Under the pieces are notes generated by a model. It was given only the letters and a program-made list of their open reading frames with translations, had not been told where the DNA came from and searched no databases. A program made the translations under genes and the position numbers. Shown here piece after piece: positions 13,671-20,145 of a DNA stretch of 62,937 nt. Origin of the DNA: Solirubrobacterales bacterium (lineage in GTDB: Bacteria; Actinomycetota; Thermoleophilia; Solirubrobacterales; Solirubrobacteraceae); NCBI GenBank assembly GCA_003132505.1, contig PKXY01000009.1:1-62937 (forward strand). The letters run 5' to 3'. Position 1 is the first letter of the stretch. Every line of letters starts with the position of its first letter.

Positions 13671-14234
13671 CTATTCGGGATTCCGATGCTGTCCCGGCTC
13701 CCACAGCGTCTCTTCGCCCCGCGCTGCGTCCCGCGCCAGGATGAACAGTAAGTCGCTCAGGCGGTTGAGGTAGCGCAGCACCTCGGGGTTCGCGTCATCT
13801 CCGAGCGCCACGACCCGCCGCTCGGCTCGCCGGCAGACCGTCCGGCAGACGTGAAGCCAGGCCGCCGCCGCGTTGCCGCCAGCGAGGAGGAAGGAGCGCA
13901 GTGGCTCGAGCGTCTCGTTGACTTCGTCGCACGCGCTCTCGAGCCATTCGACCTGCGAGGGGAGCACGCGCAGGCGCTCCTTGGTGTCGCCTTCGGGGAC
14001 CGCGAGGTCGGCGCCGAGGTCGAAGAGGTCGTTCTGGATTCGCTTCAGCCAGCCGACGGTTCGCTCCGACATGCCGGACTGGGTGATCGCGAAGCCGATG
14101 TGGGCGCCGAGCTCGTCGACGTGGCCGTAGGCCTCGATCCGCGGATCGGTCTTGGCCACTCGGCTCATGTCGCCGAGGTGGGTCTCGCCGCCGTCGCCGA
14201 GCTTCGTGTAGATGCGCGTGAGGTTCACGGTCAT
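13671..14234 (-). CDS. Cob(I)alamin adenosyltransferase, PduO type
   Basis: This 187-residue enzyme transfers the 5'-deoxyadenosyl group of ATP to cob(I)alamin, making adenosylcobalamin. PduO/MMAB motifs are present: TKLGDGGETHLGD at residue 10 (ATP loop), VDELGAHIGFA near 39-49, and the C-terminal CRRAERRVVAL and LNRLSDLLFILAR helices. ATG 14234 starts the domain exactly; longer in-frame extension would enter the riboswitch. Its start is only 45 bp from the start of the cobalamin riboswitch on the opposite strand, so the two units share a short divergent control region. Together they cover B12 import and conversion to coenzyme. Confidence 0.93.
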   Translation of the reverse strand: MTVNLTRIYTKLGDGGETHLGDMSRVAKTDPRIEAYGHVDELGAHIGFAITQSGMSERTVGWLKRIQNDLFDLGADLAVPEGDTKERLRVLPSQVEWLESACDEVNETLEPLRSFLLAGGNAAAAWLHVCRTVCRRAERRVVALGDDANPEVLRYLNRLSDLLFILARDAARGEETLWEPGQHRNPE

Positions 14235-14260
14235 CGGCCGTTCAAGTGTGTCAGAGGCGA

Positions 14261-14266
14261 TACGAT
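14261..14266 (+). promoter_or_regulatory. Possible -10 element of the B12 operon
   Basis: TACGAT fits TANNNT and would start transcription near 14273, a few bases before the riboswitch P1 stem. No good -35 is visible, so this is a suggestion. Confidence 0.4.
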
Positions 14267-14279
14267 GCCGCGCGATAGA

Positions 14280-14436
14280 GGTCGGTGGCATGGGAAGCCG
14301 GGGAGGATCCGGCGCGGACCCGCCACTGTGATCGGGGAAGTCGACCGCACGCGCGAGAGCGCAGGCCACTGGTTCGCCACCGCGAGCCGGGAAGGCGCGG
14401 GAGATCGGCCCGGAAGCCAGGAGACCTGCGCCGACC
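14280..14436 (+). ncRNA. Cobalamin (B12) riboswitch
   Basis: The closing stem P1 pairs GGTCGG (14280-14285) with CCGACC (14431-14436) perfectly. Inside are the conserved blocks ATGGGAAGCCGG, GATCCGGCGCGG and CCCGCCACTGTGA, and the B12-box-like GGAAGCCAGGAGACCTGCG near the 3' side. After P1 comes a CCCCC run (14442-14446) that can pair with the AAAGGGG ribosome site (14461-14467) of the first gene, so control is probably translational. Binding of adenosylcobalamin would lower expression of the five-gene import operon that follows. Confidence 0.93.
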
Positions 14437-14476
14437 AAGAGCCCCCAAAGACCCTCGTGGAAAGGGGTTGGCACCT

Positions 14477-15253
14477 ATGAGAAGCACTCGTTCCCTACGC
14501 GCATCGCGCGCACGTTTCGCTGCGGCCGTCTGCATTGGCGTAGCGCTCGCAGGAGTCCTGGCGACCCAGTCAGCCGCAACTGCCGCGAAGACCGCGACGG
14601 GCCCGGTTCCGGACGTGACGGTCCGGGTCGAAGGACTCACCAAGACGCTCCTGCCGCCGAAGGTGGTGACGCTCGAGAGCGGCTCTGTCAGCAAGGACGG
14701 TGTCGCCGCGGACAGCTGCAGCGCTCTCAGCGCGCTCGGCGCGCTCGAAGACGCGACTCACGGTGTTTGGAACGGCAGCTGGTCAAGCTCTTACAAGGAT
14801 TACTTCGTCACTTCGATCCTCGGTGACAGCTATTCCTCGACCGCCGACTATTACTGGGCGTTCTGGCTCAACGACAAGCCGGCGTCGCTTGGCGCCTGTA
14901 GCGTCGATCCGGCGAAGGGATCGAGCATCCTGTTCTTCCCCGAGTACGACGGCAAGAGCAAGTCGATCGTCGCCCCGAGTGTGCTCGGGATCAGCGCACC
15001 TGCGAGCGTTCTCGTTGGTAAGCCGTTCACTGTCGTCGTCACGAGCTATGCCAACTCGAACGGCAAGGCAGCGCCGGCGGTTGGCGCGCACGTGAGCGCC
15101 GACAGCGCGTCGGCAACCGCGGGCAATGGCGGCAAGGCGTCGCTGACCCTCAGCAAGACCGGGAGCGTCGAGATCAAGGTCACGGCCGCGCATGCGCTGC
15201 GCGACGAGGCGACGGTCTGCATCCACAAAGCCGGAGGGAGCTGCAGCAGCTAG
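14477..15253 (+). CDS. Exported transcobalamin-like beta-domain (DUF4430-type) protein
   Basis: This 258-residue protein has a signal peptide (hydrophobic core about 15-30, cut near 37). Residues 45-155 resemble DUF4430, the transcobalamin-like C-terminal beta domain: VTVRVEGL, a Cys-containing helix (ADSCSALSALGALEDA), then YYWAFWLNDKPASLGACSV and GSSILFFPEY. Residues 165-250 look like an immunoglobulin-like fold (PASVLVGKPFTVVVTS). There is no lipobox or anchor, so it is secreted or loosely cell-bound. It is the first gene after the cobalamin riboswitch, with AAAGGGG 9 nt before the ATG. Inference: it binds a corrinoid, as the beta domain of animal intrinsic factor does. Confidence 0.8.
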   Translation: MRSTRSLRASRARFAAAVCIGVALAGVLATQSAATAAKTATGPVPDVTVRVEGLTKTLLPPKVVTLESGSVSKDGVAADSCSALSALGALEDATHGVWNGSWSSSYKDYFVTSILGDSYSSTADYYWAFWLNDKPASLGACSVDPAKGSSILFFPEYDGKSKSIVAPSVLGISAPASVLVGKPFTVVVTSYANSNGKAAPAVGAHVSADSASATAGNGGKASLTLSKTGSVEIKVTAAHALRDEATVCIHKAGGSCSS

Positions 15254-15261
15254 CGGCGGAC

Positions 15262-16221
15262 ATGCAGTCTCCCAGCACCCGCAAGCTCAGGACCAGGTTC
15301 ACGGTTGCCGCGGCCGCGATTGCGCTCGCGGCAACCGTCTCAGGTTGCGGGCTCGGCGCCGGCAAGACACCGAGCGGTTCCGCGCTGCTCGTGACGCAGA
15401 ACTTCGGCGCGCAGACGATCGCGCAGGCCAGCAAGCCGAAGGTAGTCGGCGCTGACACCGTGATGCGGCTGCTCGAGCGCAACGCGGCAGTTACGACGCG
15501 TTACGGCGGCGGTTTCGTCGAATCGATCGACGGCCATTCGGGCGGCAGCGAGGATGGCCAGCCGGACGACTGGTTCTTCTACGTGAACGGTGTGCAGGCC
15601 GGGAAGGGGGCGGCGGCGACGAAGGTTCACAGCGGCGATCACATCTGGTGGGACCGCCACATCTGGGCCGCCACCGAGAGCATCCCGGCGGTCGTCGGCG
15701 CCTACCCAGAGCCGTTCATCGACGGCTACGGCGGCACCCGCTACCCGACGCGCATCGAGTGCACGCAGACCGGCTCGAAGGCCTGCAAGGGCGTCTACAA
15801 CGCGATCGCCGGCTACGGCGTCATCGAAGGCCTCGGCTGCCTCGACTGCGCCGAGTACAACATGTCGCTGCGCGTCCTCGTCGGGCCGTACTCGACGCTG
15901 GTTGACGACGCGACCGCCGACCTGCTCGAGCAGGGGCCGTCAACGAGCGGCGTCTATGCACGCTTCATCGACGGCGGGCGAAAGCTCGAGCTGCTCAACC
16001 AGGTCGGCGGGATCGCGAAGACGCTCGGGCCGGGCACCGGCCTCGTCGCCGCGACGCGGCTGCGCGGCGCGCCACCGGTCTGGTTCGTGACCGGAACGGA
16101 CGCCGCCGGGGTCGCCGCCGCCGAAGCCGCGTTCACCGCCGGCACGCTCGACGGGCACTTCGCCATCGCGGTCGCCAACTACGTCGCCGAGCCGCTGCCG
16201 CTCACATCCGCTGTGCCGTGA
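15262..16221 (+). CDS. DUF4430 lipoprotein of the B12 operon
   Basis: This 319-residue lipoprotein has lipobox VSGC with the lipidated Cys29. A DUF4430 domain at about 40-135 is clear (DWFFYVNGVQAG, then VHSGDHIWWDRH). The beta domain of transcobalamin has the same Y/W-x-F-x-N-G hairpin. The remaining 180 residues form a domain not recognised here. It has four cysteines in two pairs (IECTQTGSKACKG and GLGCLDCAEY), probably disulfides, and a C-terminal VAATRLRGAPPVWFVTGTD segment. It would sit on the outer face of the membrane beside the ECF importer. It starts 8 bp after the previous gene and overlaps the next by 4 bp. Confidence 0.82.
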   Translation: MQSPSTRKLRTRFTVAAAAIALAATVSGCGLGAGKTPSGSALLVTQNFGAQTIAQASKPKVVGADTVMRLLERNAAVTTRYGGGFVESIDGHSGGSEDGQPDDWFFYVNGVQAGKGAAATKVHSGDHIWWDRHIWAATESIPAVVGAYPEPFIDGYGGTRYPTRIECTQTGSKACKGVYNAIAGYGVIEGLGCLDCAEYNMSLRVLVGPYSTLVDDATADLLEQGPSTSGVYARFIDGGRKLELLNQVGGIAKTLGPGTGLVAATRLRGAPPVWFVTGTDAAGVAAAEAAFTAGTLDGHFAIAVANYVAEPLPLTSAVP

Positions 16222-17078
16222 GCTACCTGCGTCGGTCGAGTCCGCTGCACGCGGCGCGCGCGAGCATCGCCGCCGCCTACTGTGCGGCGCTGATCCTCGC
16301 GGCGCTGCTGACGAAGCAACCACTGATATTGGGCGCGATCGGCCTCGCGACCGCGCTCGCTGCGGCCGGCGCCGGGGTCGGGCGGCGCGTTGCGCGCTCG
16401 CTCTACTTCTCGGGACCGATGGTGGTGCTCGTGGTGGTGGTGAACGCGCTCGTCTCGCGCAACGGCCTGACCGTGCTCGCCCGCTTCGGTGACTGGGGGC
16501 CGCTCGGCCAGGTCGATCCGACGCTCGAAGCCGTTTGCTACGGCGTCGTCATCGGTCTCGAGCTGGGGGTGATAGTCGCGGTCTGCGCGCTCGCGAGCGC
16601 CACCGTCGACCCGGACGAGGTTCTGCGCTCGTTGCGGCGCGTGTCGTTCAGCTCGGCCCTGACCGCGACGCTCGCGACGCGGATGGTGCCGCTGCTGGCG
16701 GCCGATGCGCAGCGGATCGGTGAGGCGCAGCGCTCGCGCGTCAACGGTGCATCGCGCGGGGCGATCATGCGCGCGATCACGACGAACGCGCTCGACCGGG
16801 CGCTCGACGTCGCGGCGACGCTCGAGGTGCGGGGTTATGGGGCTGCGCGCCGCCCTCCTCGGGTTGTGAGGCCGGTGTCGCGGCATGACGTGGCGTTTGG
16901 CTGTGCGGGCGGCTTGATTGCGGTGCTCGCGTGCTCGGTTTCGGCTTTGCATCTGGCTGCGTTTCGGTTCTACCCGACAGTGGTTGGGCGGTTTGGGGTG
17001 ACGCAGCTCTTGGTGGCCGCGGGGTTTGTGGTGCTGGCCGTGTTGCCGTTCTTGGAGCGGCGGGGGATCGAGCGGTGA
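16218..17078 (+). CDS. ecfT: ECF transporter transmembrane subunit EcfT
   Basis: This is a 286-residue membrane protein of the CbiQ/EcfT family, the scaffold that links the S component to the ATPases. Hydrophobic segments fill the first 130 residues. The cytoplasmic coupling helices carry the family's basic motifs: MVPLLAADAQRIGEAQRSRVN and the typical LEVRGYGAARRP. Two more membrane segments end the protein. The GTG start overlaps the stop of the lipoprotein gene (GTGA), and its own stop overlaps the ATPase start in the same way, so the three are translationally coupled. Confidence 0.92.
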   Translation: MSYLRRSSPLHAARASIAAAYCAALILAALLTKQPLILGAIGLATALAAAGAGVGRRVARSLYFSGPMVVLVVVVNALVSRNGLTVLARFGDWGPLGQVDPTLEAVCYGVVIGLELGVIVAVCALASATVDPDEVLRSLRRVSFSSALTATLATRMVPLLAADAQRIGEAQRSRVNGASRGAIMRAITTNALDRALDVAATLEVRGYGAARRPPRVVRPVSRHDVAFGCAGGLIAVLACSVSALHLAAFRFYPTVVGRFGVTQLLVAAGFVVLAVLPFLERRGIER

Positions 17079-18670
17079 GTGTGTTTGAGCTCGAGGAGGT
17101 GACGTATCGCTATCCGGAGGCGACCCTGGCGGCGCTTGACCGCGTCAGCTTGAGCGTTGGCGAGGGCGAGCTGGTGGTGCTTGCGGGACTGTCAGCTTCG
17201 GGCAAGTCGACGCTCCTGGGGATTGCGGCGGGGGTCGTGCCGCATTTTCATGGCGGCACGTTCTCGGGACGAGCGGAGGTCTGTGGCGCTGACCTGCGTG
17301 AGGCCGGGCCGGCGCAGCTTGCCGAGCACGTCGGGACGCTGTTCCAGGACCCCGAGACGCAGGTGCTGATGGCGAGCGTCCGCGCTGAGCTTGCGTTCCC
17401 GCTGGAGAACCGCGGCCACGACGCCGTTGCGGTGGCGCGCGGGGTCGAGGAGGTGGCGCTCGCGCTCGGGATCGAGGCGCTGCTAGAGCGCCAGACCGCG
17501 ACGCTTTCCGGCGGCGAGCTGCAGCGCGTCGCGTTGGGGGCTGCTCTGGCGGGCCGTCCGCGGCTGCTCTGCCTCGATGAGCCGACCTCGCAGCTCGACC
17601 CGGTCGCAGGCGATGAGCTGCTAGGACTGCTGCGCCGCCTCAACGAGGAGTGGGGGACGACGATCCTGCTCGCCGAGCATCGACTCGAGCGCTGCCTCGC
17701 CGCCGCCGATCGCGTGATTGCGCTCGAGCGTGGCCGGGTGGTCTGCGACGCGTCGCCGAGCGCGTTCCTCGACTGGGCCCACGACGCGGCGCCGTCGCTC
17801 GAGACCCCAGGGGCGCGGCTCCTCGCGTCATTCGGCCTCGAACCGCCGCCGGCAGGAGTCAAGGCCGCCCGCGCGACGCTCCGCGCGCACGGCCTGCTGC
17901 CACCCCCGGCCGAGCCCTCGTTTGCGCAACCGCCCCGCCGCCGCCGGCGCCGCGACGCTTCCCAGCCGGCGCTGCGATTCGAGCGCGTCTGGCACGAGCT
18001 GCCTGCAGGCCGCGCGATCCTCGCCGGCGTCTCCTTCGAGCTCGCGCCCGGCGAGGTCCTGGCGCTGCTCGGACGTAACGGCGCCGGCAAGTCGACGCTG
18101 CTGCGCCACGCCGCGGGCCTCCTCACCCCGACCCGAGGGAAGGTCAGTAACAGCGGCCACATCGCACTGCTCCTCCAAAACCCCGGCTCCTACCTGATCC
18201 ACGACGACGTCGGCGACGAGCTGCCGCGGGCGGAGCTGGTCTCAGCCGGCCTCGCGCAGCTGATCGGCCGGCACCCGCGCGACCTCTCCGGTGGCGAGCG
18301 CCAGCGGCTCGCGCTGGCGATCGTTGGCGGCGACGAGGCCAGCGTGCTCTGCCTCGATGAGCCGACGCGGGGGATGGACCGCCAGGCGAAGGCCGAGCTG
18401 GCGGCGCTGCTGCGCGAACGCGCCGCTGGCGGCGCTGCGGTGATCGTCGCGACCCACGACCCGGAGTTCGCGGCGAGCTTTGCGACGCGCGCGATCCTGA
18501 TGGCGGATGGGCGCGTTATCGCCGATGCGCCGCCGGCGGAGATCCTCTCGGGCGGCTGGTACTTCGCGACCGAGACGGCGCGGATCCTCGGCGGTCACGG
18601 CGGCGCGCTGACGGCGGAGCAGGGCGTCGCGGTGATTCGCGCCGATGAGGCCGCCGGGGCGCTTCGGTGA
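17075..18670 (+). CDS. ecfA: Fused double ATPase of an ECF transporter (EcfA-EcfA')
   Basis: This 531-residue protein carries two complete ABC ATPase domains in one chain. Domain 1 (1-230) has Walker A GLSASGKST, signature LSGGELQRV and Walker B LLCLDEPTSQLD. Domain 2 (about 300-510) has GRNGAGKST, LSGGERQRL and VLCLDEPTRGMD. A Pro/Arg-rich linker (about 265-295) joins them. Both sites have intact glutamates (DEPT), so both may hydrolyse ATP. In most ECF systems the two ATPases are separate genes; fusion fixes a 1:1 heterodimer. The start is GTG 17075, inside the EcfT stop. Confidence 0.93.
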   Translation: MSVFELEEVTYRYPEATLAALDRVSLSVGEGELVVLAGLSASGKSTLLGIAAGVVPHFHGGTFSGRAEVCGADLREAGPAQLAEHVGTLFQDPETQVLMASVRAELAFPLENRGHDAVAVARGVEEVALALGIEALLERQTATLSGGELQRVALGAALAGRPRLLCLDEPTSQLDPVAGDELLGLLRRLNEEWGTTILLAEHRLERCLAAADRVIALERGRVVCDASPSAFLDWAHDAAPSLETPGARLLASFGLEPPPAGVKAARATLRAHGLLPPPAEPSFAQPPRRRRRRDASQPALRFERVWHELPAGRAILAGVSFELAPGEVLALLGRNGAGKSTLLRHAAGLLTPTRGKVSNSGHIALLLQNPGSYLIHDDVGDELPRAELVSAGLAQLIGRHPRDLSGGERQRLALAIVGGDEASVLCLDEPTRGMDRQAKAELAALLRERAAGGAAVIVATHDPEFAASFATRAILMADGRVIADAPPAEILSGGWYFATETARILGGHGGALTAEQGVAVIRADEAAGALR

Positions 18671-20145
18671 GCTGGCAGCTCGCTTCTTTCACGCTCCTCG
18701 GCCTAGCGTTGATCGGCTGCTTCGCCTGGTATGAGCGCTCGCGGCCGAGTTCCCGGACGGTCGCGCTCGTCGCCACGCTCGCGGCGCTTGCGACGCTCGG
18801 GCGGATTGCGTTCGCGCCGCTCCCAGACGTCAAGCCGACGACCGACATCGTGCTGATCGCGGGCTTCGCGCTCGGCGCCGCGCCCGGTTTCGCGGTCGGC
18901 GCCATCACGGCGCTCGCCTCGAACCTGTTCTTCGGCCAGGGCCCCTGGACGCCGTGGCAGATGCTCGCCTGGGGCCTCTGCGGCATCGGCGGCGCCGCAC
19001 TGGCGCGACCGGGCTGGCGGATCCCGCGCGTCGTACTGGCAGCGATCTGCGCCGCCGCGGGCTTCGGCTACGGCTTCGTCCTCGACTTCTACACCTGGGT
19101 CGGCTACAGCGGCGAGCACACGCTCGCGCAGTACCTCTTCATCGAAGGTGAGGCGTTCCCGTTCAACCTGACCCAGGCGATCGGCAACTTCGTCTTCTGC
19201 CTCGCGTTCGGCCCGGCGCTCGTGCGGGCGCTGCAGCGCTACCGGCTGCGGCTTGATGTGCGCTTCGTCGGACTCGCTTCGCTCGTCTTCCTCGCGGTTT
19301 CCGGGGGGATTGGTGGTGGCGGGGCGGTTGCGCGCGCCGCGACGCCGAGTCGCGTGATCCGTGCCGAGATCGGATACCTGCGCCTGGCGCAAAATCGCGA
19401 TGGGGGGTGGGGGAGTGGTGTTGGCCAGCCATCGTCGCAGCTCTTCACGGCCTGGGCTGTGATCGGGCTGGCAGGCGCCGGTGTCGATCCGCGGGACGTC
19501 GCTCGGGACGGGCACACGCCGGTGGCCTGGATCGAGGACCACCCAGGCCAGCTGCAGGGCGCCGGGGATCTCGAACGGACGATCCTCGCGCTGCGGGCGG
19601 CGCACGCGCCGCCCGGCGAGCTCCTCGTCGAGCTCGAGCGCGACCAGTCGCGTGACGGCTCGCTCTCCGGGCAGACGAACCTGACCGCGTTCGCCATCCT
19701 GGCGCTTCGCGCGGCCGCAGCGCGACGGGTCGGGGCGGCCGGCGCCTGGCTCGCGCGCCAACAGAACACGGACGGCGGCTTCGGCTTCGCGCAGCGCGGC
19801 AGCGACAGCGACGTCGATGACACCGCCGCCGCCGTCGAGGCGCTGGCCGCGGCGGGCGCCGCGAAGGGCGTGATCGCGCGCGCCGTCGGCTACATCGAGC
19901 GTGCGCACAACGGCGACGGCGGATTCCCCGAGGAGCCGGGCGGCAGCTCGAACGCCCAGTCGACGGCGTGGGCTGTGCAAGCGCTCATCGCGGCCGGTGC
20001 GACGCCCTCAGGCGATGGCTACCTCGAGCGTCTCACCACAAGCTCCGGCGCGGTCGACTACGCCGCGGGTCAATCGCAGACGCCGGTCTGGGTCACCTCG
20101 CAAGCGCTCGCCGCGCTGGCCGGTCGGCCGCTGCCGATCAGCTGA
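18667..20145 (+). CDS. ECF S component fused to an external alpha/alpha-toroid
   Basis: This 492-residue fusion begins with residues 1-195, an S component with about six hydrophobic segments (TDIVLIAGFALGAAPGFAVGAITALASNLFF is typical). A further membrane segment (about 199-222) follows. Residues 225-492 are a soluble domain with prenyltransferase/squalene-cyclase repeats (QNRDGGWG, QNTDGGFGF, HNGDGGFPEE) and helix pairs such as TAWAVIGLAGAG and TAWAVQALIAAG. About 270 residues is enough for a whole alpha6/alpha6 barrel, the fold of the N-terminal domain of transcobalamin and intrinsic factor. The toroid would face outside. Cobalamin or a corrinoid is the inferred substrate, based on the riboswitch. 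The GTG start overlaps the ATPase stop. Confidence 0.87.
   Translation: MSWQLASFTLLGLALIGCFAWYERSRPSSRTVALVATLAALATLGRIAFAPLPDVKPTTDIVLIAGFALGAAPGFAVGAITALASNLFFGQGPWTPWQMLAWGLCGIGGAALARPGWRIPRVVLAAICAAAGFGYGFVLDFYTWVGYSGEHTLAQYLFIEGEAFPFNLTQAIGNFVFCLAFGPALVRALQRYRLRLDVRFVGLASLVFLAVSGGIGGGGAVARAATPSRVIRAEIGYLRLAQNRDGGWGSGVGQPSSQLFTAWAVIGLAGAGVDPRDVARDGHTPVAWIEDHPGQLQGAGDLERTILALRAAHAPPGELLVELERDQSRDGSLSGQTNLTAFAILALRAAAARRVGAAGAWLARQQNTDGGFGFAQRGSDSDVDDTAAAVEALAAAGAAKGVIARAVGYIERAHNGDGGFPEEPGGSSNAQSTAWAVQALIAAGATPSGDGYLERLTTSSGAVDYAAGQSQTPVWVTSQALAALAGRPLPIS

Follow-up and report, generated by a model that had tools for sequence, protein, structure and literature searches.

A cobalamin riboswitch-controlled energy-coupling factor operon of a Solirubrobacterales bacterium with predicted transcobalamin-like alpha and beta domains on separate proteins

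Introduction

Could the two halves of a transcobalamin work together if one of them were tied to a membrane importer and the other were carried by a different protein? The question is raised by a five-gene operon, preceded by a cobalamin riboswitch, on contig PKXY01000009.1 (assembly GCA_003132505.1) of a Solirubrobacterales bacterium; the whole stretch of DNA analysed, 62,937 nucleotides long, is referred to hereinafter as the window. With a probability of roughly two in three, we read the operon as a riboswitch-controlled importer of the CbrT-type energy-coupling factor (ECF) kind, with transcobalamin-like alpha and beta halves on separate proteins that would clamp vitamin B12 outside the cell. 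The more specific proposal, i.e., a natural split transcobalamin with its alpha half on the ECF S component and its beta half on a lipoprotein, forming a two-part clamp on its own importer, appears to us evenly balanced. ECF transporters are not generally known to rely on extracellular binding proteins. If the reading is true, this would be an ECF transporter with built-in extracellular capture, whose split clamp would give up the near-irreversible grip of the animal carriers so that the vitamin can be released into the S component.

Organization of the operon and the ECF module

The riboswitch and the five genes are the following:

14241..14446, plus strand: cobalamin riboswitch (Rfam RF00174; 61.5 bits, gathering score 31.5; covering model positions 1-189)
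14477..15253, plus strand: gene 1, DUF4430 protein of 258 residues (PF14478, 29.4 bits against a cut-off of 23.8)
15262..16221, plus strand: gene 2, DUF4430 lipoprotein of 319 residues (PF14478, 56.2 bits against 23.8; lipobox)
16218..17078, plus strand: gene 3, EcfT of the CbiQ family (PF02361, 59.8 bits against a cut-off of 25)
17075..18670, plus strand: gene 4, double EcfA with both ABC domains in a single protein (two stretches matching ABC_tran, 152.7 bits)
18667..20145, plus strand: gene 5, S component fused to a toroid, 492 residues in one open frame

The riboswitch is the only Rfam match reaching the gathering score in the window and the only match to that model found in the genome (2.75 Mb assembly with an estimated completeness of 91%); it lies 30 bases from gene 1, and a tight run of five plus-strand genes follows, with genes 3, 4, and 5 each overlapping the preceding gene by four bases. 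The original prediction, made from the letters of the DNA, had described a cobalamin riboswitch ahead of five coupled genes, including EcfT, a double EcfA, and an S-toroid fusion; the RF00174 score, the Pfam matches, and the single frame of 492 residues bear it out, and what had to be corrected is the start of the riboswitch, which lies about 20 bases earlier. We do not claim an expression platform, since the RNA fold of positions 14425-14500, where a ribosome-site hairpin was sought, was no better than that of shuffled sequences (z 0.99).

The gene 5 protein can be divided into the following parts:

18667..19251, plus strand: CbrT-type S component part, residues 1-195 (6fnp_A, E 2.9e-12)
19246..19332, plus strand: hydrophobic stretch between the S part and the toroid, residues 194-222 (hydropathy; low model confidence)
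19336..20142, plus strand: alpha/alpha toroid, residues 224-492
19807-19830: stretch SDVDDTAA of the toroid, bearing D-x-D-D

Probing all PDB sequences with the S part retrieved chain A of 6FNP as the sole match up to E 10, with 30% identity in the alignment to its 166 printed residues. This chain (182 residues) was taken as CbrT from its length and its S-type motifs, and it shares with the S part the motifs SN.F.G.G.WT..Q and FD..H..GN; the gene 5 protein has an extra N-terminal helix ahead of the CbrT-like region. Two family scores fell short of their cut-offs, that of Pfam ECF_trnsprt on gene 5 only just (28.9 bits against 30.7), and that of TIGR04520 on gene 4 (E 5.8e-77, 258.7 bits) with respect to an equivalog cut-off of 315. 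The window holds EcfT, two EcfA domains, and a CbrT-homologous S component, and the operon likely encodes a B12 importer.

The beta domains of genes 1 and 2

Both genes preceding the ECF module code for proteins with a DUF4430 domain, whose features are listed below:

14786..14935, plus strand: DUF4430 (transcobalamin beta-like) match in gene 1 (Pfam)
15346..15348, plus strand: lipobox cysteine codon (Cys29) of gene 2 (sequence and alignment)
15361..15669, plus strand: transcobalamin beta-like domain of gene 2, residues 34-136
15697..16179, plus strand: C-terminal domain of gene 2, residues 146-306

Both proteins have an N-terminal hydrophobic stretch according to hydropathy. In gene 1 it spans residues 12-30, because of which the protein is likely exported, and no lipobox was seen there; in gene 2 the lipobox is VSGC, and at least 90% of the sequences in an alignment of 57, that of the window included, retain Cys29. 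The family profile of gene 1 retrieved 3u7z and human transcobalamin-1 as its first PDB matches. For gene 2, a structure model was built from the window sequence and 56 of the 120 listed relatives, and structure comparison matched its DUF4430 domain with the beta domain of the animal cobalamin carriers, including the hairpin after the helix; the link of gene 2 to these carriers is thus predicted from the fold.

The toroid of gene 5

Pfam Prenyltrans matches the gene 5 toroid with 32.5 bits (cut-off 26.5). A structure model of the protein, built from 54 of the 120 listed proteins, matched the alpha domain of intrinsic factor in the VIA second look, which covers mainly residues 219-488 (the S part is placed by sequence); terpene cyclases score higher, and the match is not specific. 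According to the alignment of the window toroid with those of 30 of the 37 class loci that have one, polar residues are conserved where the inner helices of its repeats begin (GDLERT, NLT, DDT, AQST, and TPVWVT), as would be expected of a ligand face. PF01122, the eukaryotic cobalamin-binding family, was weakly matched by three of the 31 toroids scanned (best E 0.004).

The S part is followed by an arginine-rich stretch and then by the hydrophobic residues 194-222, which likely form a membrane helix; many stand-alone toroids of the relatives have N-terminal hydrophobic leaders. From these features we infer that the toroid lies outside the cell, held at the membrane, in this case via the S component. 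Of the nine stand-alone toroids belonging to other lineages within the phylum, eight have a C-terminal hydrophobic stretch as well (L116-L119, L122, L124, L175, and L188, not L123; L117 and L175 probably represent a single contig).

The toroid also matched NCBIfam NF053823, the SCO2321 family of membrane proteins, with E 2.2e-25; the score of 89.4 bits is below the curated cut-off of 300, so that the protein shares the toroid with that family and is not a member of it.

Distribution within the class

Gene 5 was matched, whole or in part, in 196 of the 299 genomes of the class, and a single match spanning S part and toroid was found in at least 54 of them, that of the window included, all belonging to the same order; in most sampled loci of other orders, S component and toroid are encoded by separate adjoining genes. 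Forty class loci were taken by hand, 20 of them listed as full-length fusions and 20 others, two of which (L052 and L056) turned out to be fused. RF00174 precedes the genes in 39 of these loci, the exception (L062) being truncated by the contig end, and the only other riboswitch class was represented by one c-di-AMP match, located in L055 about 1.3 kb upstream of the cobalamin riboswitch of that locus; homologous operons are therefore mostly under cobalamin riboswitches, as the original prediction required. The toroid is present in all 40 loci but L055, L067, and L068, and at least two DUF4430 domains in all but L062 and L068.

In a tree of 129 S domains (midpoint root), all 58 fused rows fall inside one group of 70 rows (support 94/86), the remaining 12 lacking the fusion, in some cases in sequences truncated at a contig end. 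The fusion label requires nine changes on this tree, at least eight of which are forced. This distribution fits a single origin of the S-toroid fusion, followed by losses or separations.

Two class loci show peculiar arrangements. L043 has two cobalamin riboswitches in tandem (1506-1664 and 2656-2847), each before its own DUF4430 gene, in one operon. In L057 (8539-13306) the toroid gene lies between two DUF4430 genes, and upstream there are two cobalamin riboswitch matches on opposite strands, overlapping by 35 bases.

Does the host need imported cobalamin?

A further gene of the window lies beside the riboswitch, divergent from it and from the operon, and was absent from the original prediction:

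13671..14234, minus strand: PduO-type ATP:cob(I)alamin adenosyltransferase gene (PF01923, 207.2 bits, 2.4e-61; TIGR00636, 176.1 against a cut-off of 108.45)

The genome has MetH (TIGR02082, 743 bits, under the cut-off because the sequence piece is cut), a methylmalonyl-CoA mutase, and one more B12-binding subunit of a mutase. The genome search gave no match for MetE, CbiC, or CobS, and one sub-threshold match for FecCD (19.3 bits against 26.5); these four absences are likely rather than proven, the assembly being 91% complete. The organism would accordingly need imported cobalamin, and the operon is the only candidate B12 import system found by these searches. The FecCD result fits the earlier statement that no BtuFCD genes are present, BtuF and BtuD having not been searched individually.

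Distribution beyond the class

The named genomes were scanned with the S alignment and the best 80 loci were kept, some of them probably duplicating genomes sampled above; their domains were called with profiles trained on the fetched loci. Among these genomes, the S part of the window groups with the Solirubrobacterales genome L126 in the S-domain tree. DUF4430 was found in 62 of the 80 loci and the toroid in 60; the latter is fused to S in 39 loci and encoded by a separate open reading frame (ORF) in 16 (the categories may overlap), while some of the 20 stretches without a toroid are cut short. A single ORF codes for both toroid and DUF4430 in 15 loci, among them those of Moorella, Desulfotomaculum, Anaerovirgula, and Caloramator, as well as an Armatimonadetes record. 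When six of these ORFs were run against Pfam, DUF4430 was above its cut-off in all six and a toroid family only in L195; the toroid families were below the cut-off in L163 and L178, and the toroid call rests on the custom profile in L176 and L192.

As for the riboswitch, a custom model built from 30 of these elements (its sequences include five of the 80 loci) placed one ahead of the operon in 43 named loci, and 28 of the other 37 had fewer than 700 bases upstream; in one more locus, L175, it precedes a long ORF outside the defined gene set. Nineteen loci from other lineages of the phylum, taken by hand from 92 matching genomes, gave nine strong (at least 70 bits) and four weak (23-28 bits) matches to the same model. 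Rfam scans covered ten of these 19 loci and 19 of the 80 named ones; with Rfam alone, a riboswitch precedes the ECF genes in nine of the 19 loci scanned outside Actinomycetota, several others being cut off upstream.

Proposed mechanism and alternative explanations

Cobalamin binding by the animal carriers starts at the beta domain, and the alpha domain closes afterwards (PMC11107200). Human transcobalamin domains made separately bind cobalamin more weakly and co-elute only in its presence (PMC5599065). By analogy, beyond the gene set, we infer the following steps: the lipid-anchored beta domain of gene 2 would catch cobalamin first; the toroid on the S component would then close on it; the separate halves would grip the vitamin more loosely than a one-chain transcobalamin, as the separately made human domains do (PMC5599065), so that it could move on into the S component; and ATP would drive import after the hand-over. 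The original prediction had the toroid and a beta domain clamp a corrinoid at the cell surface. Part by part, the predicted fold of each half speaks for it, that of the gene 2 beta domain matching the animal carriers and that of the toroid matching the intrinsic factor alpha domain non-specifically; the complex and the transfer to the S component are conjectured.

Several observations weigh against this reading. The nearest structures and sequence families of the toroid are terpene cyclases and not cobalamin carriers, and with Foldseek alone intrinsic factor was not among the 50 matches listed for the S-toroid model. A sequence profile of the gene 2 beta domain retrieved no animal carrier from the PDB, only an unrelated match at E 0.65; a profile of 11 of the 15 toroid-DUF4430 ORFs retrieved terpene cyclases, Ig-like domains, and 3u7z (E 0.36), and no transcobalamin. 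The window toroid carries a cyclase-like D-x-D-D. Moreover, eight loci (L055, L067, L108, L109, L111, L112, L115, and L121) have ECF and DUF4430 genes with no toroid found in the stretch, as do part of the 20 named loci lacking one, which implies that the toroid is not always needed. Lastly, a large genome of the same phylum (L120:1174-7134) harbors EcfT, EcfA, S, toroid, and DUF4430 together, but its S part is distant and neither Rfam nor the custom model detected a cobalamin riboswitch there; this system, possibly the SCO2321 setting, may carry something else.

The toroid-less operons lead to the alternative that survives best, although we consider it unlikely: the CbrT-like S component would take cobalamin directly, the DUF4430 lipoprotein would be the sole capture protein, and the toroid would be a docking or steadying adaptor that never touches the vitamin. 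CbrT alone does bind cobalamin, with a Kd of about 9 nM, and reconstituted ECF-CbrT transports it (PMC5997447); furthermore, the toroid fold serves many roles. What speaks for a ligand-binding toroid instead is the sharing of one ORF by toroid and DUF4430 in relatives, the architecture that sandwiches B12 in transcobalamin, together with the polar residues conserved at the inner helices.

Quite improbable, in our view, is that the toroid is an enzyme, either class II terpene cyclase-like or glycan-active, working on a lipid or envelope molecule. Its best structural and sequence matches are indeed the terpene cyclases, and we take the DVDDT of the window toroid to resemble the class II D-x-D-D motif. 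Nevertheless, D-x-D-D occurs at that site in only 25 of 61 S-fused, 10 of 41 stand-alone, and none of 18 DUF4430-fused toroids (three of the 120 rows are gapped); the motif is not generally kept, and the cyclase reading was set aside. The toroid, besides, is encoded among likely B12 import genes that follow B12 riboswitches. Still less probable is that the system imports a cobalt compound, or a corrinoid other than complete cobalamin: cobinamide is a further substrate of CbrT (PMC5997447) and the CbiQ family names suggest cobalt, but the S part is closest to CbrT, the neighboring gene codes for an adenosyltransferase, and no match was found in the genome for CobS, to finish cobinamide, or for CbiC, for a B12 pathway from cobalt.

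Relationship to known systems

Returning to the two-part clamp, its core idea is already known. According to Burroughs, Balaji, Iyer, and Aravind (2007; PMC1796856, as far as the consulted parts of that paper go), bacterial transcobalamin-like beta domains (SLBB), often fused to a toroid and encoded beside CbiO/CbiQ, are proposed B12 scavengers, whose hosts usually lack key B12 synthesis enzymes and whose operons have a second SLBB paralogue; animals are proposed to have acquired the fused toroid-beta form. The window belongs to this kind of system, sharing the transcobalamin-type beta domain and its second paralogue, the toroid, a CbiO-like ATPase, and a CbiQ-like protein. In those systems, however, toroid and beta domain are fused in one protein, whereas in the window the toroid is on gene 5 and the beta domains are on genes 1 and 2, the one-polypeptide form being found only in relatives (e.g., L195). 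The consulted parts of PMC1796856 mention no S component, CbrT, toroid-transporter fusion, riboswitch, or Thermoleophilia.

The ECF-CbrT of Lactobacillus delbrueckii (PDB 6FNP) was shown to carry cobalamin and cobinamide, the prediction of CbrT being credited to Rodionov et al. 2009 (PMC5997447). It has in common with the window a related S component, EcfT, two EcfA, and pduO in the cluster; it differs in that the matched chain of 182 residues has no toroid, the ECF module is shared with other S components, and no extracellular binding partner is described in the sections consulted. The animal carriers (transcobalamin, intrinsic factor, and haptocorrin) resemble the window in the predicted fold of both domains, alpha toroid and beta domain, but have them in one soluble chain and not on different proteins with the toroid tied to an importer.

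A different solution is that of BtuCDF, an ATP-driven cobalamin importer with extracellular capture by a BtuF-type binding protein; the window is similarly ATP-driven with a proposed outside capture, and the proteins are unrelated.

No earlier account of the S-toroid fusion was found in the literature surveyed, whose coverage did not extend to Rodionov et al. 2009 and most subscription papers. With respect to the consulted parts of PMC4350170, PMC5997447, PMC1796856, PMC5599065, and PMC11107200, the toroid-S fusion and the separation of toroid and beta domain look new and so, as far as surveyed, do the identification of the S part as CbrT-like and the association with riboswitches across the class. 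The covalent fusion would tie the 2007 prediction to a characterized transporter type, the CbrT-type ECF, and points to a way in which an ECF system might acquire a means of capture outside the cell. A natural two-part transcobalamin would also be a system for measuring the order of binding and release, and the one-ORF toroid-plus-beta proteins, found in the same gene neighborhoods in Bacillota, bear on the origin of the animal carriers.

Other arrangements of DUF4430 genes

In four archaeal records (L177, L186, L199, and L201), DUF4430, EcfT, EcfA, and a CbrT-like S component are encoded together, and no toroid was detected in the stretch. In L106-L111, L190, and L194, two or three DUF4430 domains occur within single long ORFs (about 1000-2300 residues); those of L108, L109, L111, L190, and L194 adjoin DUF4430-EcfT-EcfA-S genes for which no toroid was detected. 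L190 and L194 come from Slackia, with which L108, L109, and L111 group on the S tree.

Lastly, in seven operons of the same phylum as the window (L116-L119 and L122-L124) the cobalamin riboswitch is separated from the DUF4430 gene by an additional ORF, about 850-970 residues long from stop to stop (e.g., L119:7382-9991 and L116:7303-9951); according to Pfam, those of L116 and L119 contain a PQQ_2 beta-propeller and DUF5719. BtuG of Bacteroides is a beta-propeller as well.

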